Shown: one piece after another, positions 2,328 to 17,470 of the stretch
How the letters are laid out: each line of letters begins with the position of its first letter
Numbering within the stretch: position 1 is the stretch's first letter
Assembly (NCBI GenBank): GCA_029747585.1
Contig: JAPEVF010000930.1
Coordinates: 1-17,470 of the forward strand
Source: Pleurotus djamor
Lineage: Eukaryota > Basidiomycota > Agaricomycetes > Agaricales > Pleurotaceae
Length of the DNA: 17,470 nucleotides
Direction of reading: 5' to 3'
Position numbers and translations under genes: made by a program
The notes under the pieces: generated by a model
Database searches by the model: none
What the model was told of the DNA's origin: nothing
Seen by the model: the letters and a program-made list of their open reading frames with translations, nothing else

Positions 2328-2329
2328 TG

Positions 2330-2360
2330 TCATACCCCAAAATTGAATCTTGGGATATGA
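2330..2360. repeat. Terminal inverted repeat at LTR tip
   Basis: TCATACCCCAA at 2330-2340 and TTGGGATATGA at 2350-2360 pair at 10 of 11 positions around a 9-nt spacer. The same dyad is at 14348-14378 in the second LTR. It sits 2 bp inside the LTR end, where integrase acts. Confidence 0.8.
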
Positions 2361-2757
2361 ACATGAATTTGTATATTTTCTATTTCTTTTATGCATCCCT
2401 CTACCTCTGTCACCCCACCCATTTTCCTAGTACCATACTTCAGGACTCTACCTAATCAGCCATACCACTTTTCTCTTAGCTAGTAAAGTCTATTCTGTCT
2501 TGATCCACTTAGTCTATAGTCTCATTTAATTATTTACTGTTTCCTGCCTACTTGAATTTTCTCTACTCTTTCTTTTCATCTTCTCCATTCACAAAGTAGT
2601 TGCACCAAGTTACAATCTCCTATTCTACTCCTCCTATATCCTGGGAAGACCCGGCCACTTGGTTTTCTCATGAAACACGCACCAGAAGACAAGGCAGCGC
2701 AACATGAAACACAAGAGTCAAGGAATGCAGTGCTTAGAGCCAGACTCAAATGCCCGG

Positions 2758-2775
2758 ACTTGTTTATTGACAAGT
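2758..2775. repeat. U3 inverted repeat ACTTGT...ACAAGT
   Basis: Six-base arms with a 6-nt spacer (5 nt in the second LTR). The arms are kept although the spacer changed length. This is a possible protein-binding dyad, not proven. Confidence 0.5.
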
Positions 2776-2817
2776 TATGACTCTAGCACTCAAGGCCAGA
2801 CTCTCTGTAGTTGAAAC

Positions 2818-2840
2818 ACTAGTCTACAGGCTGGACTAGT
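2818..2840. repeat. U3 inverted repeat ACTAGTC...GACTAGT
   Basis: Perfect 7-base arms with a 9-nt spacer, repeated at 14831-14853. It lies about 160 bp upstream of the TATA box and could be a regulator-binding site. Confidence 0.55.
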
Positions 2841-2996
2841 ACACTGAGGCAGTGAACTTCTGGGCTACTCTACTCCAGGCTGGAATAGAGCCAGAATGTT
2901 CTGAGGAGGACTATAGACATAGCCTAGTTGTAAACACTACTTGTGATTGGCTGGTTTCTGTCAAACAGAACCACGTAGATACAAACACCTGTATCC

Positions 2997-3004
2997 TATA
3001 TAAG
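2997..3004 (+). promoter_or_regulatory. LTR TATA box (TATATAAG)
   Basis: TATATAAG is a strong match to the TATA consensus and is identical in the second LTR at 15010-15017. Transcription would be expected to begin some 25-40 bp downstream, close to the C-rich repeat. This would mark the U3/R boundary (inferred). Confidence 0.7.
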
Positions 3005-3030
3005 CTGGAGGTTTCAGTCTCCATAATACA

Positions 3031-3105
3031 AGTCTCCCCCCCTTGGAAAAGTCTCCCCCCCTTGGAAAAGTCTCCCNCCCCTTGGAAANGTCTCCCTTGG
3101 AAATC
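3031..3105 (+). repeat. C-rich minisatellite, about 18-19 bp unit
   Basis: Three to four copies of a unit like CTTGGAAAAGTCTCCCCC follow the TATA box. The C-runs vary in length within and between the two LTRs, and two N bases fall here (3077, 3089). The equivalent region is about 15044-15118, with N at 15059 and 15088. Confidence 0.75.
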
Positions 3106-3129
3106 CCAAGTTTACACACAGTTATTTTA

Positions 3130-3283
3130 GCAAGGAACAGTTCAAGAGTGACTGTAGTCCTTGGAATACTGTTGGAGCTTCCTCAGTAACCGTTACTGAG
3201 TAATTCTGAAGTTGTGCCACAGTCTATTCTCGCAAGGAGCAGTTCAAGAGTAACTGTAAGCCTTGGAATACTGTTGGACCTCC
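3130..3283 (+). repeat. Direct duplication of about 50 bp inside the LTR
   Basis: The segment from about 3131 to 3178 and that from about 3234 to 3281 are near-identical: both carry GCAAGGA, CAGTTCAAGAGT, ACTGTA and CCTTGGAATACTGTTGGA in the same order. They are about 103 bp apart and also present in the second LTR. Confidence 0.75.
3182..3200. repeat. Perfect palindrome CTCAGTAAC-C-GTTACTGAG
   Basis: Nine-base arms around one central base, lying between the two 50-bp duplicated units. The second copy is at 15196-15214. The form is that of a dimeric transcription-factor site, or of a short hairpin in the transcript. Confidence 0.65.
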
Positions 3284-3476
3284 GTCTGTTTGTTTCAAGT
3301 CCAATTCAAGTCTCTGTCTGTTATACCTCGGACGGGTAACAGATATACGTACGTATCTCAGTCTGACCTATACAGCTAGGTCTATTCTTTCACCACTGTT
3401 CCTCAAGCAAGTGTGCCTCAAGGCCATTTCACCTCAAGCTACCTCAAGTCAAGGAAAGGAAAGCTATTCATACAAG

Positions 3477-3536
3477 GTACGTTTTCACTAAGTATCTTGT
3501 CTACTGACCTATTCTCGGTTGTCAACTACATTAAAG
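3477..3536 (+). other. Candidate 60-nt leader intron / splice donor
   Basis: AAG|GTACGT at 3476/3477 is a strong fungal donor. CTGAC at 3503-3507 and TCAAC further on could be branch points, and CATTAAAG ends at 3536. This could be a short intron in the 5' leader, or the donor for longer splicing to downstream ORFs. The identical arrangement is at 15491-15550. No transcript evidence is available. Confidence 0.4.
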
Positions 3537-3574
3537 ACTACATTTCCTCAAAGTCAAGTCAAGAGGAACACTCA

Positions 3575-3592
3575 CACCACCACCACCACCAC
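3575..3592 (+). repeat. (CAC)6 microsatellite
   Basis: Six CAC triplets, present with the same copy number at 15589-15606. They would read as a histidine run in one frame, but that frame starts with GTG and is not a supported gene. Confidence 0.8.
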
Positions 3593-3742
3593 TTTGATTG
3601 CAAAACACGATATACATTCTCTACAAGAGAAGGGAGTAGTTTGTTGAGCCACTTATCAACGAACAACCAGGCATATATCGATCTACGGAAAGATCCATTG
3701 ACCCTGGGCTTTCTGGTTAAACACCGGATTGCGTGATACGAT

Positions 3743-3760
3743 TGGAGCCCACCGCGAGGG
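3743..3760 (+). promoter_or_regulatory. Candidate tRNA primer-binding site
   Basis: TGGAGCCCACCGCGAGGG follows the LTR. Its complement would be a tRNA 3' end with CCA, discriminator U73, a 7-nt acceptor strand GGTGGGC, a T-stem strand CTCGC and two loop bases. The match would stop exactly before position 58, where m1A normally blocks reverse transcriptase. U73 is characteristic of cysteine tRNA, so tRNA-Cys is the best guess; I cannot compare with this genome's tRNA set. An identical copy is at 15757-15774. Confidence 0.55.
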
Positions 3761-3887
3761 GATAAGTTTTGGAAACCTTACCAAACTCATCCCACTTTCA
3801 TATCATTCAACTTTTGCAATCACCACTACATTTATCGTCATCACCAACCTTCTCATTGCACGCTAGTCACCATCCTACTATCCGACA

Positions 3888-6800
3888 ATGTCATTTTCAC
3901 CAGAGCACCCACATGCTCAATCCCAACAGTTCATTATGCCTGGAGCTAATACAGCTAGGGATCCACCTCCCCATGTACCCTCCAGCACTGCTAGTTTCTC
4001 CAACATTGAGACAAGACCTTCCTCATCTTCAGGAAGAACAGAGACACTAGACCACTATTCCCGCCGCACACCTGATATGATGCCAGGACCAGGAGAAAAG
4101 TCTGCTCCGCCCAAGTTCAAAGGAAGTCATGAACAAGTCAAGCGATTCATCAAACGTTTCAACCGACTCAGCAAGACATACAATCTCATAGATCCTCAAG
4201 AGAAATGTGAGAGAGTTGTTGACTACTGCAGCCGCAGTGTAACAAAGTTGATTGAAGCACTCCCTGGTTATCAAGAAGGTGATTGGGACAAGCTAGAAAG
4301 CCAAATTCTAGACTACTATGATGCTGCACTTCAAGACACCAGGTATATTCTCCAGAACCTCACTTCCCTGGTAAGTAAATGGAAGCACAGAGAGCTTGAG
4401 ACCCTCAGCCACTGGAAGAGGTATCAACGCAAGTTTATCACTATTTCAGGATGGTTACTCAAGCGGAAGAAGATATCCGAAGAGCAGCAATCTGCATATT
4501 TCTGGCAAGGCATCAACAAGCAAACCAAGAAGGATATTGAGTGGAGAATCAAGGCACTCAATCCCAAGCTTACCACCAGAGACATCTACCCCATGGACGA
4601 TATCAAGAAAGCTGCAGCTGACCTGTTTGAAAGAGATAGAGCAGAATACGACCTTGCTCAATCTGATTCTGATATGCCAGAGTGGGCAAACACAGACTCA
4701 GACTCTGAAAGTGATTCAGACAGTGAATCTGACAGTGAGTATGACCACAAGAAGAAGTCCAAGCATTCCAGGCACAAGTCTGACTCCAAGTATGACAGGA
4801 AGAAGAAGAAGCCTACCAAGAGGCGAAGCTATGATTCAGACACCTCTGACTCTGATTCTGACTCTGACTCTGAACCTGAGACAGAGAAGCGGCGCAAGTC
4901 CAAGCACAAGCACANGACCTCAAGTTCCCCAAAGCGAGACTCNCCAGCAAAGAAGGAGAAAGTCAAGGTTGAGAAAGAAGTGGAGCAGCTGATCAAGCAA
5001 ATGTCTAATCTGTCCACCAATGATCCCAAGAACAAGGGTATCTTTGCAGCAGCATACTACCGTGCAATCAAGCTTGATCCATCAGTTGCATCCATTATTG
5101 ACACTCCCTCAGCATGGTACACAGCAGGACATACTCAAGCAAGTAGGAGTTCACCTCCTAGTATGACCAGAGCTAATTCCAGATCTCTCCAAAGTCAGTC
5201 ACCCAGCTTTGTATCTCCAGTCAACCGCACTCCTCTTGGTGGAGGCAGGCCCAGTAGTGAAATGGTCTGCTATGGATGCCAGAAGGGAGGACATGGACTG
5301 AGAGAATGTCCTGAACTCAACCAGTTGATTCAGCAAGGATACCTCCGTCAGAATGAATTTGGAAAGATTGTATTCCCTGATGGAACCACTGTCCGACGTC
5401 AATTTGGAGAGTCCATTGTTGAAGCTGCACGAAGGAAGGGTTCTTCTTCCTTTATTCAGACCAACTTTGTAGAAGCCTACCAAGGATATGAATCAGACTA
5501 TGATTCTGAGGCCCATGACTACTCTGACTATGAGGAGGAAGTCAACTTTGCTGCTGTTCACTCAGATGAAGAAGAATACACTGAGGATGAGTATGATCAG
5601 CCAGAGTACATTGTCAACAATGAAGTTCTCAATACCCATGCAAGCTTTGGGTATCCCCAAGCCTATACTGCAGAAAGAGTCACTCGTAGCACTGCTAATG
5701 CTCGTCAAGATGCAAACCGCAAGTCAGTCACTCCTCCACCCTCAAGATCAAGTGGACCGTCAAATTCCCAGACCTCTAGCCGAAGCACCCAACGGCCAAT
5801 TCTCAATCATCCAGGACCCAGTCGTCGACCATTGCTTAGACCTCCACCAGCACCAGTTCCAGCAGATGTACGCAGAGCAAATCCACCCACAATTGAGGAC
5901 ATTGAAATGAGAGACTCAGCAAACCGCACTCATTCCCATACTGCACCAGAGGTAAGCAACAAGTCCGCCACTCCAAGAGCAAAGCCAGTCCCACGCCAAT
6001 CAGAGATTTCTGGTCAAGTCAGGGATGACAAGATTCTTGATTTGATTCTGGATACTCAAGTCCCAATGAAAGTCCGCGAAATTCTAGGAACATCAAAGGA
6101 GTTATCTGAACTATTTGGAAATGCCCTGAAGCGAAAGAACCCAAAGCCAGTTGGGCAAGTTGGAGCATCCCAAGTACAAGCCACAGGAGCCACTGCACAA
6201 GTCCACCTAGTTCAAGACAATGAGTCTGAATCCCTTGAACGTGCCCAGCTAGTAAAGATCCCTATGACAGTCAGACATGTTCTCCACAATACAACATCTG
6301 AAATTCTGGCCACACTTGACTCTGGCTCTGAGATCAACATGATGAGCCAGAAGGTATATGATGATCTGATTGGAGGACCCATTGACAAGAGCAAGAGTTG
6401 CTCCATCCTTGATGCAAATAGTGGAAGTGGTAATCTCACTGGTTATGCTACTGCTATTCCTCTTACATGTGGAAACCTGACTACCAAATGCAACATCTAC
6501 ATGCACCCGGATCCACCATTTGAAGTACTCCTTGGACGACCATGGCAGCGAGCCAACCGGATGTGTGTCATTGAGCGGAATGAAGGAACCTATCTTGTTC
6601 AAGCCAATGATGATCAACCATTGACTGGAAGTGATATACCAGCCTCCAAGTTTGAAATGAGAGTCCTTACTGCTGCAGAAGCATCTGTCCCTGGAAATCA
6701 TCGCCTAGGATTGACACGACGTTGGAAGGAACTGAACCAGAAGAAGATGAACCAAGTGCATACAACTCCAACCTCACAAGCCATGTTACTTGAGGTGGAG

Positions 6801-7487
6801 CAAGCTACTGAAGACACAAATATCAGAGAAGCATTACCACCAGAATCATCCAGAGTTTCCCAAAGCTGGCACCATTTTTGCATTGCCCTAGCATTGATTT
6901 TCTGCTTCCTATCTGCATTTCTCCCATTCCTGCCATTACTCCTTGTTTTTGCCCTGCTGGTATTCATTCAAGTTGAAGCCAATCTCCGGAAAGTATATGA
7001 CCTTGTACAGAACATCCTCACTACAAGCCAATCATTCAATTCAGTTGTTCAGGAAGAAGATCCACCAACAGATACCAAACCTGCAGACTCTGCAAGCGTC
7101 CCCTTGTTAGGAAATGTCTTTGATTCAGGCCAGGAGCCGAATCCATTTCTTGAAGAAGGCGAGATTGTTGAAAGCATCAGTACAGCAGCTGCCCAAGACA
7201 TGCCAGTACATATTGAAGAGTCTCAAAGTTTTCCACCCTTTGCAGGAACCCAGTTTTTTCGGCGCAGCCAGCTCTTTGAAAGCAGACAAGATGATCCTCC
7301 TACCATTTGCTCATGCTCTGAAACCACCCTTTGCAACCATGTCATTCAAACGGCAATCACCAGAACAACCCGACGTCCCAGACTCTGGTTTGAAACTGAT
7401 CAGAATCATCGAAGAGACACCATCAATCCCCTTAGCAACCAGTTTCTACACTCCCACCCCCCTGGGAAAATCAAAGACGATAAATGA
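3888..7487 (+). CDS. gag: ORF1: Gag - CCHC zinc knuckle - aspartic protease - hydrophobic segment
   Basis: A 1199-residue structural polyprotein. Residues about 65-215 form a retrotransposon Gag capsid-like region (PPKFKGS, VKRFIKRFNRL, a SHWKRYQRKF stretch). A long charged stretch, about 260-345, alternates Ser/Asp/Glu runs with Lys/Arg clusters. The zinc knuckle is C461-x2-C464-x4-H469-x4-C474, for RNA binding. The retropepsin site is D811-S-G in LDSGSEIN, with LLGRPW at about 881-886. Residues 997-1027 are a 31-residue hydrophobic run unusual for this protein type. The C-terminal part overlaps pol. The ATG at 3888 has A at -3 and begins the Gag homology. Two codons contain N (4915, 4943). 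The length, roughly two to three times a typical Gag, reflects the fused protease and the added tail. Confidence 0.93.
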   Translation: MSFSPEHPHAQSQQFIMPGANTARDPPPHVPSSTASFSNIETRPSSSSGRTETLDHYSRRTPDMMPGPGEKSAPPKFKGSHEQVKRFIKRFNRLSKTYNLIDPQEKCERVVDYCSRSVTKLIEALPGYQEGDWDKLESQILDYYDAALQDTRYILQNLTSLVSKWKHRELETLSHWKRYQRKFITISGWLLKRKKISEEQQSAYFWQGINKQTKKDIEWRIKALNPKLTTRDIYPMDDIKKAAADLFERDRAEYDLAQSDSDMPEWANTDSDSESDSDSESDSEYDHKKKSKHSRHKSDSKYDRKKKKPTKRRSYDSDTSDSDSDSDSEPETEKRRKSKHKHXTSSSPKRDXPAKKEKVKVEKEVEQLIKQMSNLSTNDPKNKGIFAAAYYRAIKLDPSVASIIDTPSAWYTAGHTQASRSSPPSMTRANSRSLQSQSPSFVSPVNRTPLGGGRPSSEMVCYGCQKGGHGLRECPELNQLIQQGYLRQNEFGKIVFPDGTTVRRQFGESIVEAARRKGSSSFIQTNFVEAYQGYESDYDSEAHDYSDYEEEVNFAAVHSDEEEYTEDEYDQPEYIVNNEVLNTHASFGYPQAYTAERVTRSTANARQDANRKSVTPPPSRSSGPSNSQTSSRSTQRPILNHPGPSRRPLLRPPPAPVPADVRRANPPTIEDIEMRDSANRTHSHTAPEVSNKSATPRAKPVPRQSEISGQVRDDKILDLILDTQVPMKVREILGTSKELSELFGNALKRKNPKPVGQVGASQVQATGATAQVHLVQDNESESLERAQLVKIPMTVRHVLHNTTSEILATLDSGSEINMMSQKVYDDLIGGPIDKSKSCSILDANSGSGNLTGYATAIPLTCGNLTTKCNIYMHPDPPFEVLLGRPWQRANRMCVIERNEGTYLVQANDDQPLTGSDIPASKFEMRVLTAAEASVPGNHRLGLTRRWKELNQKKMNQVHTTPTSQAMLLEVEQATEDTNIREALPPESSRVSQSWHHFCIALALIFCFLSAFLPFLPLLLVFALLVFIQVEANLRKVYDLVQNILTTSQSFNSVVQEEDPPTDTKPADSASVPLLGNVFDSGQEPNPFLEEGEIVESISTAAAQDMPVHIEESQSFPPFAGTQFFRRSQLFESRQDDPPTICSCSETTLCNHVIQTAITRTTRRPRLWFETDQNHRRDTINPLSNQFLHSHPPGKIKDDK

Positions 7488-10400
7488 GTCATTCCCAGTC
7501 GAGTCATATTTTACCAAGCTTCCCACCGAATATGAGTATGAGAATTCTCAAGGCACAGAAGAATCCCTTTTCACACCTGGGACAATTGACGAAGAACTGA
7601 AGCGCATCTTTGAAGCCAATGCAGTTGACCTAGATGAGGACATTATACTGTTTCCAATGAAAGAGGTACATCAAGATACACTTACATTTGAAGCATATAC
7701 TGCCTACAAGCGAGTAGATCAGAAAGTTCATCCGGTATCTGGAGTATACCCTGAGAATGCCAAAGTGACTCGCACATTCCCACATAATCCACTTGACTCA
7801 TTACCGACCCTTCCCACACACCCTCCCGAATTCATTCCAACAGCGCGACTCACCCAGGAACGTATTGACTCCATGGAAGTTAACAAAGATGAATTTCTCC
7901 GGCCCGAAGAGGAGAAACTATTCAAGCACATCCTACGCCTAAATGAAGCCACCCTAGCATTTGAGGAAAAGGACCGAGGAACTCTACGCAAAGACTATTT
8001 CTCGGATTACATCATTCCCACTGTTCCACATACACCATGGGAGTACAAGAATATTCCTATTCCACCGGGAATCAAGGATAAGGTAATAGAGATGTTAAAG
8101 AGCAAGATCGAAGCCGGAGTCTATGAACCATGCCAATCATCGTATCGAGGACGTTGGTTCTGTGTACTCAAGAAGAATGGATCACTCCGGATTGTTCATG
8201 ATCTACAGCCTCTCAATGCTGTCACAATCCGCGATGCTGGACTCCTACCTATTGTTGATGATTTTGTGGAACCCTATGCAGGTGCACAGTGTAGCACCAC
8301 ATTCGACCTATTTTGGGGCTTTGATGCAAGAATTGTCGACCCATCCTCAAGAGATATGACTGCTTTCTGGACACCACTTGGATTACTCCGACTCACAGCA
8401 CTACCTATGGGCTACACTAATTCACCAACAGAATTTCAGAAATGCATGGTGCATATTCTGCAAGATGAAATTCCCGATGTTGCTAATATCTTCATTGATG
8501 ATCTGCCTATCCGAGGACCAAAGACACAGTATCTAGACATCAATGGAAGCCCTGAGACTTTACTAGGCAATCCTGGAATTCGGAGATTTATCTGGGAACA
8601 TGCCAATGATGTTCACAGAGTTATGCACCGAATCAAATGCGCTGGAGCTACTTTTTCACCAAAGAAGACTCAAATATGCCGACCAGAAGTTGTCATTGTT
8701 GGACACAAGTGTACTCCAAACGGCCGCTGCCCAGATGATGACCGTATATCCAAGATAGTAAACTGGCCATCTTTGACCAACCCCAAAGAAGTACGTGGTT
8801 TCCTAGGACTATGTGGAACCGTACGAATCTGGATCAAAGACTACTCTCAACTTGCTAGACCACTGACTGAGCTAGTACACAAGAATGCTGAATTCACATG
8901 GGATGAACGACGTCAAGAAGCATTTGAGACTTTGAAGGCCAAAGTTATTTCTGCCCCCGCACTACGTCCCATTGACTATACTTCCGACAAGCCTATAATT
9001 CTGTCTGTTGATACAAGCTACATTGCCACTGGATTCATTCTCTCGCAGGAAGACGGGAATGGAAAGCGTAGACCTGCACGCTATGGATCACTGCCCATGA
9101 ATGAGGCCCAAGCACGCTATTCACAGCCAAAGCTAGAGCTTTATGGTCTGTATAGAGCTCTACGACATTGGAGGATATACATCATTGGAGCAAAGAAACT
9201 GATAGTTGAAGTGGATGCCAAATACATCAAAGGAATGCTTCGTGAACCAGATCTACAGCCAAGTAATGCCATGAATAGATGGATACAAGGAATCCTAATG
9301 TTCACATTTGATCTTGTCCACATTCCTGGCAAGAACTTCAAAGGACCTGATGCTCTCTCAAGGAAACCTCACCTACCCTCAGAATATGTTGAAGAAGACG
9401 AAGAATGGTTGGATGACATTGCTTTGTATACCCAGGTCACAGAGTCACCCTCCGCTGAGAAAAACACATTCAAAGTATATGCCCTTCCATCAAGCCATAG
9501 TAATGCAGAAACATCTATGACACAACTAGAGATGGTGAAGCATTACCTGGAAACAGCTGAACTCCCTGAATTAGAGACCTCTCAAGACATAGCAAGATTT
9601 ACAAGCCGTTCCAAGAGGTTTATCCTGGACAAGGGACAGTTCCTGAAGAAGAACAAGACAGGAACTCCTTTGACTGTTATTCTGGACCCAGTGAAGCGTC
9701 TAGAAATCCTCTGCAAAGCACATGACGACTTAGGACACAAAGGAAATGATTCAGTATTTGATTTGATCAAGAAAAGATACTATTGGCCACACCTCAGAGC
9801 TGATATCCGGTACTACATTGCATCATGCCACCAATGCCAAGTACGGAGGACCATCAAGCTGCAGATGCCCTACCGAATATCTGCCCCAGTCCGTATCTTT
9901 GAGAAAGTCTATATTGATGTAATGGTCATGCCAAAGAGTGGAAGGTTTGAGTATATTGTTGCTGCCAAAGATGATTTGACTGGAGTAAGTGAAGCACGCG
10001 CAATTCCATCCAACTCCTCTCAAAATCTAGCTGACTTTTTCTGGGATCAAATCTACTGTCGATATGGAAGCATTGACCAGGTTGTCACTGATAATGGACC
10101 TGAGACAAAGGGAGCATTTCAGTCACTCATTGAACGCCTAGGTATTCCACAAGTTCGCATTACACCCTACAACAAGCATGCTAATGGAGTTGTAGAGAGA
10201 GGACACTATACTCTCCGCGAAGCCATTGTCCGATCATCTCCAAAACACCCTGATGGAACTATCAAAGAATGGGAAAAGTATGTTAATCTTGCAGTATTTG
10301 CTGATCGAGTCACCGTCAGCACTGTCACCGGTTATTCACCTTATTACCTACTCCATGGAACTGAACCAGTACTCCCACTTGACTACGCCGAAGCAAGCTT

Positions 10401-10866
10401 CATGGTTACAGGGTTTAGATCGGAAATGAACACTGCCGAACTACTTTCCCTGCGCATTCGCCAACTTGAGAAACGTGAAGAAGACTTAGAAGCTGCTGCA
10501 GACACTCTGAGACAAATGAGATGCCGCAGTTTAGAGCAATTTCTCAAGCGCTACAAGCATCGAATACAGAAGGAAATCTACGACCCTGGAGAATTTGTGG
10601 TTATTCGGAACAATCGACATGAAGAATCGCTTTCAGCACTCAAGACTCGCGATCGCTACATTGGACCCTTCAAAATCGTCAAGCGAACAGACCGTAACAA
10701 TTACGTCTTGCAAGAATTGAACGGAACCCTCATGCCAGACACTGTTGCAGCTTTCCGCGTTTTGAAATACTTCTCCAGAGACGACCCCGCGCTTCTGGAA
10801 ATGTTGGATGACCCTGGATCTGACATTGAATCTGACGAATCTCCTGAGAACAGTGAAACGGAGTAA
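7114..10866 (+). CDS. pol: ORF2: Pol - reverse transcriptase, RNase H, integrase
   Basis: 1250 residues counted from the ATG at 7114. The frame is open from 7111 and is +1 relative to gag. RT: D398 in TFDLFWGFD, LPMGYTNSP at 430-438, and FIDDL at 460-464 (the YxDD box with Phe). RNase H: D633, E675, D701 and D746 (GPDALSRK). Integrase zinc domain: H870/H875 and C905-x2-C908. Catalytic triad: D935, D993 and E1028, the last two 35 residues apart as in D,D35E. GPF at 1184-1186 marks the C-terminal barrel. An acidic tail follows, without a chromodomain. The order RT-RH-IN is that of Ty3/Gypsy. Translation could use a +1 frameshift in the 377-nt overlap, or the ATG at 7339 (1175 aa), which has A at -3. 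All catalytic residues are present, so it may be active. Confidence 0.95.
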   Translation: MSLIQARSRIHFLKKARLLKASVQQLPKTCQYILKSLKVFHPLQEPSFFGAASSLKADKMILLPFAHALKPPFATMSFKRQSPEQPDVPDSGLKLIRIIEETPSIPLATSFYTPTPLGKSKTINESFPVESYFTKLPTEYEYENSQGTEESLFTPGTIDEELKRIFEANAVDLDEDIILFPMKEVHQDTLTFEAYTAYKRVDQKVHPVSGVYPENAKVTRTFPHNPLDSLPTLPTHPPEFIPTARLTQERIDSMEVNKDEFLRPEEEKLFKHILRLNEATLAFEEKDRGTLRKDYFSDYIIPTVPHTPWEYKNIPIPPGIKDKVIEMLKSKIEAGVYEPCQSSYRGRWFCVLKKNGSLRIVHDLQPLNAVTIRDAGLLPIVDDFVEPYAGAQCSTTFDLFWGFDARIVDPSSRDMTAFWTPLGLLRLTALPMGYTNSPTEFQKCMVHILQDEIPDVANIFIDDLPIRGPKTQYLDINGSPETLLGNPGIRRFIWEHANDVHRVMHRIKCAGATFSPKKTQICRPEVVIVGHKCTPNGRCPDDDRISKIVNWPSLTNPKEVRGFLGLCGTVRIWIKDYSQLARPLTELVHKNAEFTWDERRQEAFETLKAKVISAPALRPIDYTSDKPIILSVDTSYIATGFILSQEDGNGKRRPARYGSLPMNEAQARYSQPKLELYGLYRALRHWRIYIIGAKKLIVEVDAKYIKGMLREPDLQPSNAMNRWIQGILMFTFDLVHIPGKNFKGPDALSRKPHLPSEYVEEDEEWLDDIALYTQVTESPSAEKNTFKVYALPSSHSNAETSMTQLEMVKHYLETAELPELETSQDIARFTSRSKRFILDKGQFLKKNKTGTPLTVILDPVKRLEILCKAHDDLGHKGNDSVFDLIKKRYYWPHLRADIRYYIASCHQCQVRRTIKLQMPYRISAPVRIFEKVYIDVMVMPKSGRFEYIVAAKDDLTGVSEARAIPSNSSQNLADFFWDQIYCRYGSIDQVVTDNGPETKGAFQSLIERLGIPQVRITPYNKHANGVVERGHYTLREAIVRSSPKHPDGTIKEWEKYVNLAVFADRVTVSTVTGYSPYYLLHGTEPVLPLDYAEASFMVTGFRSEMNTAELLSLRIRQLEKREEDLEAAADTLRQMRCRSLEQFLKRYKHRIQKEIYDPGEFVVIRNNRHEESLSALKTRDRYIGPFKIVKRTDRNNYVLQELNGTLMPDTVAAFRVLKYFSRDDPALLEMLDDPGSDIESDESPENSETE

Positions 10867-10961
10867 AGAAGCGAAGTATCCAAATACCTGACAACAGAAA
10901 GTACAAGACTCCCAAGCGAGTGGATTGCACGCTTATGCTGCACCCACACTGCACGCAAGCA

Positions 10962-11465
10962 ATGTCCGACACTATCTCAACGCAGCCCCTGCCTCAAGGT
11001 ATGGAGACGCCCATAAGTGATGCATTGAAAACCTAATACACCTTATTAGGAACAATGCAGGATGATCTGCCTCCGCCCGATAGAGTTTTGATCAGCATTG
11101 ATTTGATCAAACACAAGTGGAACCGTATTCCGTTGCCTACACTCTCCGTCATCGGCAACCAAGACCCCCGCAAGCATACCCAAATACATGCAGGACAAGT
11201 TGTCCTCTGGGAGGATTTGCGCGGAGGAGCTCGCCCACGCGCATTGATCCGCAAGGCATCAATTACTGAAGTTTTGGCAGAGAAGGGGGATTTTATACAA
11301 GTCAAACTCTGCCTTGAGCAGACGAACTCCTCCTACTGCGTCTGGATGCCGCATGAAGATCTTGCAAATTCGCAACAAGTTGATACACCCGTAGCATGTT
11401 TTCAGCCACCAGATTGGCTGAACGTACTTTACAAGTCACTACCATTCTGCTCTATTGCTGTCTGA
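10962..11465 (+). CDS. Accessory ORF A (two exons), SH3-like motif protein
   Basis: Predicted 150 aa, from exon 1 10962-10998 and exon 2 11050-11465. Unspliced translation could instead start at the ATG at 11055 (136 aa). In that shorter numbering residues 45-103 carry the cassette signature: GQVVLWED, then PRALIRKAS, GDFIQVKLCLEQ and YCVWMPHEDL with W97. It is closest to accessory ORF D: G-[DE]-[FY]...QV-x-[LV]-x-L-x-Q-x2-SS ... Y...W-[MV]-P. No signal peptide or membrane segment is seen. The ORF starts 95 nt after the pol stop in another frame, so it is not simply a Pol tail. The function is unknown; a beta-barrel interaction module is inferred only from the pattern. An in-frame ATG at 10935 is an alternative start. 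Confidence 0.65.
10999..11049 (+). other. Predicted intron of accessory ORF A
   Basis: GTATGG donor, CTAAT branch point at 11033-11037 and TTATTAG acceptor ending at 11049, 51 nt in all, with the branch adenine 13 nt from the acceptor. The unspliced frame from 10962 hits TAA at 11034-11036. Splicing restores the frame and joins exactly to ORF A. The acceptor lies 5 nt before the ATG at 11055. Confidence 0.65.
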
Positions 11466-11720
11466 AGTCGCTTTCTTATTTTTTTTNGCTTGTATACACA
11501 AACCAAACCGAACCATTTTTTTTGAATACTTAAGTTATTTTGAGTTGCCTCATGTTGCCACGGACACACACTGGTGCGCAACGCGCCACTAGCATATTCA
11601 TTTACCTAATATCAGGCACATGCTCAGCCGCACCAAAGTTTTCACCCATGCATATTTTTCGTTGGCTCCATCTTTTTTCTTCAGCAATTCCTCCAATCGC
11701 CCTCGAATATCTCTTCTCCA
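11466..11720 (+). other. Spacer before accessory ORF B
   Basis: A 255-nt spacer with T-runs (11479-11486, followed by N at 11487, and 11515-11522). Near its end TCTTTTTTCTTCAG, ending at 11684, looks like a polypyrimidine-tract splice acceptor 36 nt before the ORF B start. It could equally be a pyrimidine-rich fungal promoter or leader. Confidence 0.35.
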
Positions 11721-12371
11721 ATGAACCCACTCCTGCCAGCAATCCCATTCCTACCCATGTCGTTCCCCGGGTATCACTTTATAATGGGACAACTGTACCA
11801 TCCCTTCCGAGGGACAGCGCTCCGAGACTACCCTCAGGATCCCGACTACGAGTACAACACTCAACTCATAATGCAGCACTTCGAGATCACCTTTCCACCT
11901 CTTGTCCACGAGAGAATGCGCATCATCTCTCTGACAAATGAGACAACTGTCCACGTTCGTATCATTCGGCCTATTCCCAACATATGCGTCATTTTCCTCT
12001 CTACCATCATCGACCCAGCTCCTTTCATCAACCGTCTTTATATTCGCCGCGTCTATGGCTGTCAAATCAGCCAGACCACCATCATCTATCACCACCAGTT
12101 GGGATACGGAGTGGCACAGGGTATTCGGCGTATTGTGGGAGGAACCGTAGAGTTGCTTGTCGCATTCCGTATACGCCATCACATTGGTTCACCGATTGTA
12201 TGGGCATACCTCTGGAGTCACCGGTCGTATGTGCGTCTTGATGCCCTTGTATCCATGGCCATCAACAACGGAGGACCCAATGCTCCTCACTTCAGAATGG
12301 TGCCTACCGATCTTGTCTCGGAGACAGTCGTAGTTAGGGACGATGGTCAACCGCGCCGCCTTACCATGTAA
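11721..12371 (+). CDS. Accessory ORF B, paralogue of ORF C
   Basis: 216 aa from the ATG at 11721; an ATG at 11757 (MSFPGYHF) would remove 12 residues. I recognise no named domain. The C-terminal core, residues about 119-180, has GYG at 128-130, then QGI, LLVAFR, and an AYLW-x4-YV stretch with W165. It aligns with ORF C by eye from near the N-terminus: an acidic, Pro/Tyr-containing lead, a V-x-[VR]-I-[RI] strand, then the GYG...QGI...LL[VI]AFR...LW core. There is no signal peptide and no clear membrane helix, so it is not an obvious envelope protein. The sequence is rich in beta-branched residues, suggesting a mostly beta fold (inferred). The function is unknown. Confidence 0.75.
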   Translation: MNPLLPAIPFLPMSFPGYHFIMGQLYHPFRGTALRDYPQDPDYEYNTQLIMQHFEITFPPLVHERMRIISLTNETTVHVRIIRPIPNICVIFLSTIIDPAPFINRLYIRRVYGCQISQTTIIYHHQLGYGVAQGIRRIVGGTVELLVAFRIRHHIGSPIVWAYLWSHRSYVRLDALVSMAINNGGPNAPHFRMVPTDLVSETVVVRDDGQPRRLTM

Positions 12372-12552
12372 TACCTACCCCGCTGTGTTTGTTTTGTATA
12401 TTCGGACTATATTCACCCTACCGTGCATTTCTCTACCTATTATCTTCATTCTGACAAGTTTTTCGTACCCGTATGTTTTGTAGTGTTTTGACTCCGGCAG
12501 TTTTTTTTTNCGCTTCTCAAATTTTTTCTTTTATCACTTCTCTCCCTACACG
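12372..12552 (+). other. Spacer before accessory ORF C
   Basis: A 181-nt pyrimidine-rich spacer with TATA-like words (TGTATATT near 12407, CTATATTC near 12416) and a T-run ending in N at 12510, followed by a T/C-rich lead directly before the ORF. It is compatible with a small internal promoter, but not diagnostic. Confidence 0.3.
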
Positions 12553-13191
12553 ATGTCGCACTCCACAATGAACACTAGTCAATATCTCGTTCCTCTCCTC
12601 CCATTCGCTGTATACACGTATGAATTACCCTGCATGGGAGATGGAAGACGGATTTTTCAACGAGAACCCAGTGAAGAATCACGGAGACAGGACGAGTTCA
12701 TCACTCACATCCTGGCAGAAGAAGACTTCCACCCAGCATTTTCCTATCCGCTGGCACCAGGGACCATAGTCAGGACAAACCATCCCGACCCGGAGGAAGT
12801 TACCAAAGTCCGAATCCGTTGTTCGCTGCTCAACTTCATTGCACTGGAGGTTGAAATTGTCGATTTCCCACTTGCAAACGCGCGCATCAGCAAAATTCAC
12901 TCACCGTTCCAAATCAATACAGTATCTATACTGTATCAGCCAATGTTTGGTTATGGATCAGTGCAAGGCATTATCGGCAAGTCGGACTGTAGTATCAAGC
13001 TGCTCATTGCATTTCGCGACACGCACGAAAGGCAGAGCCACAAGGTTCGATATGCAGGGTTATGGGTGAAACAGGACTTGGTTTCATTTGATGTACGGCT
13101 ACTTTCCTTACTTCCTACTACCAGGCCGTGTGCGATTCAGGCTAGGCACACCGCGCCAATCAATCCCGGACTCAAGTATATATGGTTGTAA
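12553..13191 (+). CDS. Accessory ORF C, paralogue of ORF B
   Basis: 212 aa. The first ATG (12553) and a second at 12568 are both plausible starts. The N-terminal 85 residues are acidic and proline-containing. A strand-rich middle follows (VTKVRIRC, IALEVEIVDF). The core at 124-185 reads GYGSVQGII at 133-141, then IKLLIAFR and YAGLWVKQDLVSF with W171. Its G-x-G-S-x2-G-I-I piece matches ORF E exactly in pattern (GIGSPIGII), and the whole core matches ORF B. ORFs B and C, 181 nt apart in tandem, look like an old duplication. No signal peptide, membrane helix or catalytic motif is visible. The role is unknown. Confidence 0.75.
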   Translation: MSHSTMNTSQYLVPLLPFAVYTYELPCMGDGRRIFQREPSEESRRQDEFITHILAEEDFHPAFSYPLAPGTIVRTNHPDPEEVTKVRIRCSLLNFIALEVEIVDFPLANARISKIHSPFQINTVSILYQPMFGYGSVQGIIGKSDCSIKLLIAFRDTHERQSHKVRYAGLWVKQDLVSFDVRLLSLLPTTRPCAIQARHTAPINPGLKYIWL

Positions 13192-13308
13192 TACATCTAT
13201 CATGTCTTTTTCACATTTCGTTACTTCATATCTACTCGTAATTTTCTTGCTCTTGATTTTTCTCTCTCTTTCTCTACTTATATTCTCAAATTTTAGTTAC
13301 ACATTTCA
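13192..13308 (+). other. Spacer before accessory ORF D
   Basis: A 117-nt pyrimidine-rich spacer. It contains a CT-tract (about 13257-13278) and ends with CTCAAATTTTAG, finishing at 13296, 12 nt before the ORF D ATG, an arrangement like a 3' splice acceptor. The CT-tract also resembles the leader region of fungal promoters. Confidence 0.35.
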
Positions 13309-13584
13309 ATGCCTCATTTCACGTCTGGCAAACTTCTTTACGGACAGACTTCCAGTTCGCCTCCTACAATCTACCGCTACCTCAACCCCTACATGGCATT
13401 GGACAAAGATGACTGGATCTCCATTGAAGGCCTTGGATTCGGACGTGTGGTGAAAAAGCAAATATGGGGCGGAGAGTATTTTGGACAAGTTGATGTTGAG
13501 CTGGGACAGAACATGAGTTCAGCACATGGCGACTTTGTTGTCTACACGTTCTGGGTACCCATTGCCAGCCTTGTGCCGCAGTAG
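13309..13584 (+). CDS. Accessory ORF D, small SH3-like motif protein
   Basis: 91 aa, the smallest member, consisting of a short polar lead and the core alone. The core runs from about residue 36: WISIEGLGFGRVVKK, then GEYFGQVDVELGQ, and VVYTFWVPIASLV with W82. Short strands joined by glycines and an aromatic-Trp-hydrophobic-Pro ending are what a small beta barrel of the SH3/Tudor/KOW type would show; this is inferred, not a domain match. It is most similar to ORF A. It ends in TAG 67 nt before the ORF E start. The function is unknown. The minimal size makes it a useful definition of the shared module. Confidence 0.7.
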   Translation: MPHFTSGKLLYGQTSSSPPTIYRYLNPYMALDKDDWISIEGLGFGRVVKKQIWGGEYFGQVDVELGQNMSSAHGDFVVYTFWVPIASLVPQ

Positions 13585-13651
13585 CTACATTCGACATAAC
13601 TGCAACACGGCGATCAGAACTCCACCCCAATTTGGACTTCATCGTGTTTCC

Positions 13652-14254
13652 ATGTTTAGTACTCAATCCAAGCCATCAGCTTCGTTTATCTCAGGCTCTC
13701 ACCACAACACAAGCATGCACACCCTCCAAGATAACCAATTCTCCTTGAAATACATTCCAAGCCACCTTTTGTTGCACAACTCATTATTCAGACGAGGCGA
13801 ATTCTACACCTACAATGTAGCAAAGACACCTGCATCACCCCTGGAATTGTGCCTACAGGGACTCATCGTGTTCTTCCGATCGTCTGGAATCACCCTGAAC
13901 ACCTCATCTGAACACCGTATTAATACCGCTGCCATCACTATTCCAACGTCCCTTAGCGGGGAAAACGGAATACAACCAACATCAACTCAGCAATTTAACC
14001 GACACCACACAGCTCATCATCCGCTGCATGGCATAGGATCACCGATTGGCATCATCCACGTGTTTGGCAGGCTTGCCCACGTGGTATGGATTTTTCAAAG
14101 CTCCAAAGCACCTGGAGTATACCAACTAGTTGGAATTTGGATGCCAATGGAACAAGTCCAGCTCCATCACTCAGTTTTGCAAGACTTGCAGAACGAGATT
14201 GCTACAGAATACAAAGTCGAAGCACCTCACCCAAGTCTTCCACAGTGGAATTGA
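13652..14254 (+). CDS. Accessory ORF E, SH3-like motif protein
   Basis: 200 aa from the ATG at 13652. The frame is open upstream to 13526, but that part overlaps ORF D and reads unlike protein, so the later start is chosen. Residues 1-125 are Ser/Thr/His-rich and probably loosely folded. The core at 125-172 has GIGSPIGIIHV, then VVWIFQS and YQLVGIWMPMEQV with W163. It ends in TGA 91 bp before the second LTR and is the last gene of the element. The G-x-G-S-x2-G-I-I match to ORF C is the clearest link. No envelope-like features are seen. The function is unknown. Confidence 0.65.
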   Translation: MFSTQSKPSASFISGSHHNTSMHTLQDNQFSLKYIPSHLLLHNSLFRRGEFYTYNVAKTPASPLELCLQGLIVFFRSSGITLNTSSEHRINTAAITIPTSLSGENGIQPTSTQQFNRHHTAHHPLHGIGSPIGIIHVFGRLAHVVWIFQSSKAPGVYQLVGIWMPMEQVQLHHSVLQDLQNEIATEYKVEAPHPSLPQWN

Positions 14255-14308
14255 CAGTAAGGCATAATTTTCAGGACATCAATGTCATATTTACCTACCT
14301 CCCCAGCA

Positions 14309-14326
14309 CTGACCGGGGGCGGTCAG
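14309..14326 (+). repeat. Hairpin CTGACC-GGGGGC-GGTCAG before the 3' LTR
   Basis: Perfect 6-base arms enclose a G-rich loop, 19 nt upstream of the LTR edge. No ordinary uninterrupted polypurine tract lies directly before the LTR (the last bases are TTTTTCTTCCGCGCGGA), so this G-run is the best candidate for the plus-strand priming region. Confidence 0.6.
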
Positions 14327-14345
14327 AATTTTTCTTCCGCGCGGA

Positions 14346-15756
14346 TGTCATACCCCAAAATTGAATCTTGGGATATGAACATGAATTTGTATATTTTCTA
14401 TTTCTTTTATGCATTCCTCTACCTCTGTCACCCCACCTATTTTTCCTACTACCACACTTCAGGACTCTACCTAATCAGCCGTACCACTTTTCTCTTAGCT
14501 AGTAAAGTCTATTCTGTCTTGATCCACTTAGTCTATAGTCTCATTTAATTATTTACTGTTTCCTGGCTACTTGAATTTTCTCTACTCTTTTCTTTTCATC
14601 TTCTCCATTCACAAAGTAGTTGCACCAAGTTACAATCTCCTATTCTACTCCTCCTATATCCTGGGAAGACCCGGCCACTTGGTTTTCTCATGAAACACGC
14701 TGCAGAAGACAAGGCAGCGCAACATGAAACACAAGAGTCAAGCAATGCAGTGCTTAGAGCCAGACTCAAATGCCCGGACTTGTTATTGACAAGTTATGAC
14801 TCTAGCACTCAAGGCCAGACTCTCTGAAACACTAGTCTACAGGCTGGACTAGTACACTGAGGCAGTGAACTTCTGGGCTACTCTACTCCAGGCTGGAATA
14901 GAGCCAGAATGTTCTGAGGAGGACTATAGACATAGCCTAGTTGTAAACACTACTTGTGATTGGCTGGTTTCTGTCAAACAGAACCACGTAGATACAAACA
15001 CCTGTATCCTATATAAGCTGGAGGTTTCAGTCTCCATAATACAAGTCTCCCTCCCCTTNGGAAAGTCTCCCCCCCTTGGAAAAGTCTNCCCCCCCTTGGA
15101 AAAGTCTCCCTTGGAAATCCCAAGTTTACACACAGTTATTTTAGCAAGGAACAGTTCAAGAGTGACTGTAGTCCTTGGAATACTGTTGGAGCTTCCTCAG
15201 TAACCGTTACTGAGTAATTCTGAAGTCGTGCCACAGTCTATTCTCGCAAGGAGCAGTTCAAGAGTAACTGTAAGCCTTGGAATACTGTTGGACCTCCGTC
15301 TGTTTGTTTCAAGTCCAATTCAAGTCTCTGTCTGTTATACCTCGGACGGGTAACAGATATACGTACGTATCTCAGTCTGACCTATACAGCTAGGTCTATT
15401 CTTTCACCACTGTTCCTCAAGCAAGTGTGCCTCAAGGCCATTTCACCTCAAGCTACCTCAAGTCAAGGAAAGGAAAGCTATTCATACAAGGTACGTTTTC
15501 ACTAAGTATCTTGTCTACTGACCTATTCTCGGTCGTCAACTACATTAAAGACTACATTTCCTCAAAGTCAAGTCAAGAGGAACACTCACACCACCACCAC
15601 CACCACCTTGATTGCAAAACACGATATATATTCTCTACAAGAGAAGGGAGTAGTTTGTTGAGCCACTTATCAACGAACAACCAGGCATATATCGATCTAC
15701 GGAAAGATCCATTGACCCTGGGCTTTCTGGTTAAACACCGGATTGCGTGATACGAT
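14346..15756 (+). repeat. LTR, copy 2 (shared middle LTR)
   Basis: This repeats 2328-3742 with net 4 bp fewer. Counted by eye, the first ~490 bp differ by 9 substitutions and 4 indels (one of 6 bp). The remaining ~900 bp, excluding the C-rich repeat, show about 4 substitutions. The right edge is inferred from the primer-binding site at 15757. Confidence 0.87.
15010..15017 (+). promoter_or_regulatory. LTR TATA box, copy 2
   Basis: TATATAAG, identical in sequence and setting to that at 2997-3004. It would drive transcription of the second unit. Confidence 0.7.
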
Positions 15757-15901: not shown

Positions 15902-17470
15902 ATGTCATTTTCACCAGAGCACCCACATGCTCAATCCCAACAGTTCATTATGCCTGGAGCTAATACAGCTAGGGATCCACCTCCCCATGTACCCTCCAGC
16001 ACTGCTAGTTTCTCCAACATTGAGACAAGACCTTCCTCATCTTCAGGAAGAACAGAGACACTAGACCACTATTCCCGCCGCACACCTGATATGATGCCAG
16101 GACCAGGAGAAAAGTCTGCTCCGCCCAAGTTCAAAGGAAGTCATGAACAAGTCAAGCGATTCATCAAACGTTTCAACCGACTCAGCAAGACATACAATCT
16201 CATAGATCCTCAAGAGAAATGTGAGAGAGTTGTTGACTACTGCAGCCGCAGTGTAACAAAGTTGATTGAAGCACTCCCTGGTTATCAAGAAGGTGATTGG
16301 GACAAGCTAGAAAGCCAAATTTTAGACTACTATGATGCTGCACTTCAAGACACCAGGTATATTCTCCAGAACCTCACTTCCCTGGTAAGTAAATGGAAGC
16401 ACAGAGAGCTTGAGACCCTCAGCCACTGGAAGAGGTATCAACGCAAGTTTATCACTATTTCAGGATGGTTACTCAAGCGGAAGAAGATATCCGAAGAGCA
16501 GCAATCTGCATATTTCTGGCAAGGCATCAACAAGCAAACCAAGAAGGATATTGAGTGGAGAATCAAGGCACTCAATCCCAAGCTTACCACCAGAGACATC
16601 TACCCCATGGACGATATCAAGAAAGCTGCAGCTGACCTGTTTGAAAGAGATAGAGCAGAATACGACCTTGCTCAATCTGATTCTGATATGCCAGAGTGGG
16701 CAAACACAGACTCAGACTCTGAAAGTGATTCAGACAGTGAATCTGACAGTGAGTATGACCACAAGAAGAAGTCCAAGCATTCCAGGCACAAGTCTGACTC
16801 CAAGGACAGGAAGAAGAAGAAGCCTACCAAGAGGCGAAGCTATGATTCAGACACCTCTGACTCTGATTCCGACTCTGACTCTGAACCTGAGACAGAGAAG
16901 TGGCGCAAGTCCAAGCACAAGCACAAGACCTCAAGTTCCCCAAAGCGAGACTCTCCAGCAAAGAAGGAGAAAGTCAAGGTTGAGAAAGAAGTGGAGCAGC
17001 TGATCAAGCAAATGTCTAATCTGTCCACCAATGATCCCAAGAACAAGGGCATCTTTGCAGCAGCATACTACCGTGCAATCAAGCTTGATCCATCAGTTGC
17101 ATCCATTATTGACACTCCCTCAGCATGGTACACAGCAGGACATACTCAAGCAAGTAGGAGTTCACCTCCTAGTATGACCAGAGCTAATTCCAGATCTCTC
17201 CAAAGTCAGTCACCCAGCTTTGTATCTCCAGTCAACCGCACTCCTCTTGGTGGAGGCAGGCCCAGTAGTGAAATGGTCTGCTATGGATGCCAGAAGGGAG
17301 GACATGGACTGAGAGAATGTCCTGAACTCAACCAGTTGATTCAGCAAGGATACCTCCATCAGAATGAATTTGGAAAGATTGTATTCCCTGATGGAACCAC
17401 TGTCCGACGTCAATTTGGAGAGTCCATTGTTGAAGCTGCACGAAGGAAGGGTTCTTCTTCCTTTATTCAG
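15902..17470 (+). CDS. gag: ORF1 (Gag), copy 2, partial at window end
   Basis: 523 codons in an unbroken frame, with no stop before the window ends, covering the Gag region, the charged Ser/Asp/Lys stretch and the CCHC knuckle. Compared with copy 1 there is a precise loss of one Tyr codon (TAT at 4791-4793) in the charged stretch and about five substitutions. Two of these change the protein (Arg to Trp near 16901, Arg to His near 17358); the others are silent. The two N positions of copy 1 read A and T here. The protease and later parts are outside the window. Confidence 0.93.
   Translation, partial: MSFSPEHPHAQSQQFIMPGANTARDPPPHVPSSTASFSNIETRPSSSSGRTETLDHYSRRTPDMMPGPGEKSAPPKFKGSHEQVKRFIKRFNRLSKTYNLIDPQEKCERVVDYCSRSVTKLIEALPGYQEGDWDKLESQILDYYDAALQDTRYILQNLTSLVSKWKHRELETLSHWKRYQRKFITISGWLLKRKKISEEQQSAYFWQGINKQTKKDIEWRIKALNPKLTTRDIYPMDDIKKAAADLFERDRAEYDLAQSDSDMPEWANTDSDSESDSDSESDSEYDHKKKSKHSRHKSDSKDRKKKKPTKRRSYDSDTSDSDSDSDSEPETEKWRKSKHKHKTSSSPKRDSPAKKEKVKVEKEVEQLIKQMSNLSTNDPKNKGIFAAAYYRAIKLDPSVASIIDTPSAWYTAGHTQASRSSPPSMTRANSRSLQSQSPSFVSPVNRTPLGGGRPSSEMVCYGCQKGGHGLRECPELNQLIQQGYLHQNEFGKIVFPDGTTVRRQFGESIVEAARRKGSSSFIQ

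Follow-up and report, generated by a model that had tools for sequence, protein, structure and literature searches.

The window studied here is the entire contig C1339 (17,470 bp) of a Pleurotus djamor genome assembly that comprises 55.9 Mb in 1413 contigs. It holds a long terminal repeat (LTR) retrotransposon of the Ty3/Gypsy type, as seen from the order of reverse transcriptase (RT), RNase H and integrase in pol and from the paired LTRs that flank gag and pol. The element extends from LTR to LTR over 13,425 bp (2328-15752). A preliminary description of this DNA had reported five plus-strand open reading frames (ORFs) between integrase and the 3' LTR, together a quarter of the element. All five (O1 to O5, Table 1) are present at this place, none of them contains an internal stop, and the stretch 10962-14254 indeed makes up 24.5% of the element. 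As judged from sequence comparison, O2, O3 and O5 are almost certainly real genes and homologs of one another, and five genes of the same family occupy the same place in a second, diverged Gypsy element. O1 and O4 may be further members of the cassette.

BLAST and profile comparison showed that O2, O3 and O5 are related, both among themselves and to genes at other places in the genome. A profile of the shared domain of about 80 residues, built from 12 sequences of other contigs without any sequence of the window and run against 2439 stop-to-stop frames, recovered O2, O3 and O5 with E values of 3.1e-19, 9.3e-17 and 4.8e-12, respectively; the best E value of three column-shuffled control profiles was 0.29. 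The consensus of the domain reads roughly LYHPxFGFGsvQGi...vqLLvaFR...WvalW...v.lD. Moreover, the plus strand contains three frames that run from ATG to stop over 150 aa or more, whereas 300 dinucleotide shuffles of positions 10867-14345 gave 0.14 such frames on average and never more than 2. O1 and O4 had no match to the profile at E ≤ 5; in a set of 19 sequences they reached the family at E values of 0.86 and 1.6, and pairwise shuffles were not significant. No relative of either was found in the genome, their lengths do not exceed what chance produces (both strands of the same stretch hold other ORFs of 85-143 aa), and their codon usage is indistinguishable from that of two spurious plus-strand frames. 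The shared pattern and the single founding module suggested in the preliminary description are therefore shown for O2, O3 and O5, which the profile without window sequences recovers, and not for O1 and O4, which it does not match.

Table 1. Positions of the accessory frames and of the other features of the window; the last two rows give coordinates of fetched stretches of contig C1037.
Feature	Position	Strand	Remarks
O1, accessory frame	10962..11465	+	150 aa only if the putative 51-bp intron 10999-11049 (GTATGG...CTAAT...TTAG) is left out; otherwise 11055-11465, 136 aa
O2, family gene	11721..12371	+	216 aa; shared domain about residues 100-180
O3, family gene	12553..13191	+	212 aa; shared domain about residues 105-184
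O4, short frame	13309..13584	+	91 aa; putative coding
O5, family gene	13652..14254	+	200 aa; shared domain about residues 95-175; earlier ATG in frame at 13526 (242 aa)
gag-side ORF	3888..7487	+	1199 aa; DUF4100 (PF13352, E=7.2e-8)
pol ORF	7114..10866	+	1250 aa; RT, RNase H, integrase zinc finger and core
5' LTR	2328..3738	+	1411 bp; TGTCATACCCC...GTGATA; pairs with 14346-15752
Primer-binding-site-like stretch	3743..3761	+	directly inside the 5' LTR; read from the sequence
3' LTR	14346..15752	+	1407 bp
Second gag copy, ORF	15902..17470	+	open to the contig end; head-to-tail
F-box-like host gene	1329-2186	minus	Pfam scan
C1037 129-aa frame	L040 278-667; L038 305-694		
C1037 130-aa frame	L040 906-1298; L038 931-1323		

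The second element, on contig C1078, has a pol (read in two pieces around an N) that is 77-79% identical to the window pol, and its gag is 47% identical. Over 487 bp its two LTRs show no difference; the contig start cuts the left one. After pol it carries six open frames, A to F, of 179, 202, 201, 203, 202 and 184 aa (E counted from its second ATG), of which B to F are family members and A is unmatched. The concern that the cassette might be confined to the window copy is thereby removed. An accessory system, as proposed in the preliminary description, is likely in view of these six open frames next to identical LTRs. O2 finds its best C1078 match in ORF B (3e-15) and O3 in ORF C (2e-19); a tree leaves the partners of O2 and O3 open and even joined O3 with D, on branches flagged as long. 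In the same tree O5 groups with the F genes of C1078, C123 and C478 at 100/100. Because O5 groups with F genes elsewhere, this branch split from the other family genes before the two Gypsy elements diverged. Of the expansion within the element that had been suggested, the paralogy was found; duplication inside a Gypsy element is a candidate origin of it. A near-identical, independent copy of C1078 ORF C (P0121; 201 aa, 98% identical) was the one hit among 11 candidates when residues 70-190 of ORF C were compared to predicted proteins, and lies on an 1838-bp contig from an assembled-reads source. The C1078 element as a whole measures about 21 kb (1-20674), with a gag-side ORF of 1909 aa. O1 was rejected as counterpart of ORF A, since 248 of 500 shuffles reached the score.

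Between the two elements the family proteins have diverged strongly, with identities of 30% for O2 and B, 31% for O3 and C and 27% for O5 and F. In these three pairs the codon positions differ in the order second (0.40-0.46), first (0.53-0.62) and third (0.69-0.73), and the same order was observed in the other diverged family pairs that were compared. The rate of nonsynonymous substitution (dN) amounts to 0.80-0.84 in the three pairs versus 0.16 for pol and 0.51 for gag, the synonymous rate (dS) being saturated. Taken together, the codon-position order and dN indicate that the family proteins are constrained while they diverge much faster than pol. The only close pair of family genes, O5 and its copy on C40, differs by three changes in 100 codons and is uninformative.

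A sibling element on C1037 (pol 63-75% identical), present in two head-to-tail copies, lacks the family. Its stretch between pol and LTR contains in the family's stead two frames, one of 129 aa with a single strongly hydrophobic segment and one of 130 aa. The latter was rejected both as counterpart of O4 (37 of 500 shuffles reached the score) and as family relative, as its E value of 0.01 in the set of 19 sequences rose to 1.5-1.6 among the 2439 frames. Among six more distant pol relatives (43-50% identical), the DNA after pol was read in four (C1172, 5.0 kb; C945, 4.5 kb; C451, 3.2 kb; C868, 0.75 kb to the contig end; C1366 and C260 left out) and gave no accessory match at E ≤ 0.01. Scans of IMG/VR with pol and with a pol alignment yielded 3 and 23 pattern-matched stretches, none of which was confirmed by tblastn.

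The body of the window element is that of a Gypsy element, with RVT_1, RT_RNaseH_2, Integrase_H2C2 and rve in pol all above the Pfam cut-off. Its two LTRs differ by 14 substitutions in 1401 compared bases, and the LTR has 15 DNA matches in the genome, its own two included. The right end of the 5' LTR was fixed by two other insertion sites, on C40 and C49, where the match stops at 3738-3739. The adjoining stretch TGGAGCCCACCGCGAGGGG is, by its pattern, a putative primer-binding site. With regard to a target-site duplication, a second gag copy and no flank stands beyond the right LTR; it differs from the first by 6 substitutions in 1715 compared bases and therefore points to a head-to-tail array. 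Head-to-tail Gypsy copies with a common LTR region occur in both C1339 (14346-17470) and C1037 and could be an assembly artefact. The 50 bases before O2, O3 and O4 are rich in pyrimidines (0.76-0.80; 95th percentile of the cassette 0.72), those before O1 and O5 are not enriched (0.50 and 0.58). An own promoter for each gene was rejected, since the richness was not replicated in C1078, where none of the six frames passes that element's own 95th percentile.

Diverged family members were also found on six further contigs (C123, C478, C798, C44, C1196 and C1107), and no pol was found around them in fetched stretches of 14-20 kb. C123 holds E- and F-type genes in the order and strand of C1078, and C478 two members on opposite strands; a search behind the F genes of these two contigs revealed no Gypsy LTR. 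Helitron RepHel frames are located on C123, C478 and C798; the closest family gene lies 7.6, 3.3 and 6.0 kb away, respectively. Their presence on three of the six contigs is unlikely to be due to chance, because Helitron_like_N matches number at least 26 in the genome, spread over 23 contigs, and 10 kb on either side of 23 sites cover, by a hand estimate, about 0.8% of it, with the caveat that transposons cluster. The family genes as candidate Helitron cargo are therefore a lead. C123 and C478 also have in common a frame of unknown function (51% identical) that separates RepHel from the family genes. On C1196 (28824-29555) and C1107 (32608-33339) open family genes of about 243 aa stand alone, and the members of these two contigs are 58% identical over 132 codons with a dN/dS of 0.16. 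On C1196 an LTR of the window element (45275-46683) lies 16 kb from the family gene. On C44 (L032 6606-7730, 8075-8994) and C798 (L026 5214-8800, L027 597-1358) the family genes adjoin recurring pairs of frames that lack annotation, one frame of a pair with ...IGGS(L)AL... and the other starting with MNF/MNI...LFP; the four frames scanned had no Pfam match.

The preliminary description had seen no envelope and no named family among the five proteins. Both observations held, as no Pfam family was found at E ≤ 1 for O1 to O5 (O1 as 136-aa frame) and hydropathy revealed no strong membrane helix. The best 19-residue values range from 0.64 to 1.67 (O2 being borderline) versus 2.94 for the membrane frame of C1037. 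Among 13 family members none exceeded the Pfam cut-off, a single member giving one match at 0.031. NCBIfam returned for eight proteins only E values of 0.055-0.21, far under the cut-off, and the PDB sequences contained no family relative at E ≤ 10. A comparison of the alignment of 13 members with 5.8 billion predicted proteins gave 1437 candidates and none at E ≤ 0.01, in a search by at most 100 short words that can miss distant relatives; pol as a control gave 1703 matches, including Pleurotus cornucopiae and P. djamor. The predicted model of O3 was poor (mean predicted local distance difference test score, pLDDT, 39.6). The model of the O2 domain had a mean pLDDT of 58.3, with block means of 62-75 at residues 41 to 110, and shows a set of antiparallel strands. 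VIA-align listed weak matches of it to segments of eEF3 (4.3) and Argonaute (3.9) and to the UvrD/PcrA Tudor domain and CarD (3.3-3.4), and Foldseek found nothing at E ≤ 0.001, the best rows being unrelated proteins. The model thus hints that the family domain could be a small Tudor/SH3-like barrel, although its resemblance to UvrD/PcrA Tudor, CarD and related small barrels is weak. A loop of the H/Y-P-x-F-G-x-G type likewise resembles that of such barrels. The isoelectric points range from 5.2 to 9.5 across both cassettes, those of C1078 B to F being 8.96, 5.33, 5.32, 5.24 and 8.93.

What could such proteins do? Our preferred reading, to which we assign a probability of roughly 0.4, is that O2, O3 and O5 are predicted small Tudor-/SH3-like adaptors which would counter host silencing and would have been multiplied by an arms race. 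Host-directed factors are favoured over proteins of replication or of the particle because the paralogs stand side by side, evolve fast yet under constraint, are dispensable in the sibling, have no membrane parts and occur near other transposon classes. The anti-silencing role in itself, suggested by this pattern and by analogy to the VANC proteins of Arabidopsis VANDAL transposons, is tentative. The variable N-terminal part of each protein would pick the host target, which might be a chromatin, DNA-methylation or small-RNA factor, and the common barrel would bind it. Gene copies may then multiply and diverge as host targets change, comparable to multigene families of large viruses and to VANC, and the copies beside Helitrons would fit a tool of use to any silenced element. 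A still wider version, in which a multigene anti-silencing toolkit of paralogs of one barrel-fold family is traded between mushroom Gypsy elements and Helitrons and grows by duplication inside them like viral immune-evasion families, is doubtful. The other copies of the window element weigh against the accessory system of the preliminary description. The accessory frames are kept in the two diverged elements C1339 and C1078 and absent from C1037, and O5 DNA was found elsewhere only as a damaged end, namely on C40, where the 3' half is kept, and on C49, where only the end is left, cut by the contig end and apparently frame-shifted.

The family genes might instead encode parts of the particle or of a ribonucleoprotein, in which small acidic and basic paralogs would assemble with Gag or with the element RNA. 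Acidic and basic members are adjacent in C1078, as in hetero-oligomers, and several paralogs are retained together in one element. Nevertheless, we regard such a role as rather unlikely, since the sibling on C1037 manages without family genes, the family diverges faster than gag, and members also occur where neither gag nor pol was found within the fetched 14-20 kb. Likewise improbable is that they are passengers, i.e. a fast-evolving host or Helitron family that Gypsy elements acquired and that is of no use to them. The stand-alone open members on C1196, C1107 and C44, the low dN/dS between the first two and the Helitron helicases on the stray contigs would fit this explanation, as would the cap genes of unknown function reported for Pleurotus ostreatus Helitrons (PMC4289320). 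However, five to six open frames were kept in two elements though nearly every synonymous site has changed, which argues for selection inside the mobile elements. A role in steering integration, with a Tudor- or chromodomain-like reader that would anchor the pre-integration complex on selected chromatin, seems quite improbable; the predicted model resembles Tudor and chromodomain-like segments, and the conserved aromatics (YHPxFGFG...W..lW) could line a cage. Finally, random open stretches, a concern already raised in the preliminary description, would suit O1 and O4, which lack relatives and have lengths within the reach of chance, but are excluded for O2, O3 and O5 by shuffles, homology and codon-position pattern, so that as an account of the frames they are extremely improbable.

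Additional ORFs (aORFs) have been described for plant LTR retrotransposons, e.g. Retand with TRP28, where their role is unknown and regulation was suggested (PMC7264820, PMC11963269). As in the plant elements, the extra ORFs of the cassette lie between pol and the 3' LTR of Gypsy elements. In contrast to the antisense ORFs of Retand, the cassette frames are in sense, and three to five of them belong to a single family of paralogs. LTR retrotransposons with ORF3 in bdelloid rotifers likewise have ORF types after pol that are common to unrelated classes of mobile elements (PMC5408684). However, they carry a single ORF3 with known domains (env, GDSL esterase, DEDDy exonuclease), whereas the cassette consists of several paralogs in which no known domain was found. 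VANC proteins are also transposon-encoded diverging relatives, with differing target spectra (PMC5735166), a functional analogy only. They belong to DNA transposons, while the cassette resides in LTR retrotransposons. Within the same genus, HELPO1 Helitrons of P. ostreatus carry their cap genes downstream of RepHel, which recalls the three family contigs with RepHel. MDG1-group elements with the sORF2 fusogen (PMC11952523) are likewise LTR elements that lack an envelope and carry small accessory frames; O1 to O5 differ from these by the lack of a strong membrane helix. The 129-aa frame of C1037, with its single helix, recalls the small accessory frames of membrane type in insect LTR elements.

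The cassette thus represents the known case of an LTR element with extra ORFs, but with an unusual multigene family. In the literature, judged by title and abstract and with partial coverage, we came across no fungal Gypsy element described as carrying a cassette of several paralogous genes. The searches of predicted proteins, limited in reach, remained nearly empty, and we infer that no deposited annotation lists the family genes, which points to a blind spot. LTR retrotransposons with one extra ORF were already known; in the window element the last quarter holds a family of diverged paralogs. The family recurs in a second element, whose two LTRs are identical, and in the neighbourhood of Helitrons, which suggests that transposons of fungi maintain a common toolkit that keeps evolving. 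Should the genes counter silencing, they would offer a direct handle on transposon silencing in mushrooms and on the transposons' answer to it.

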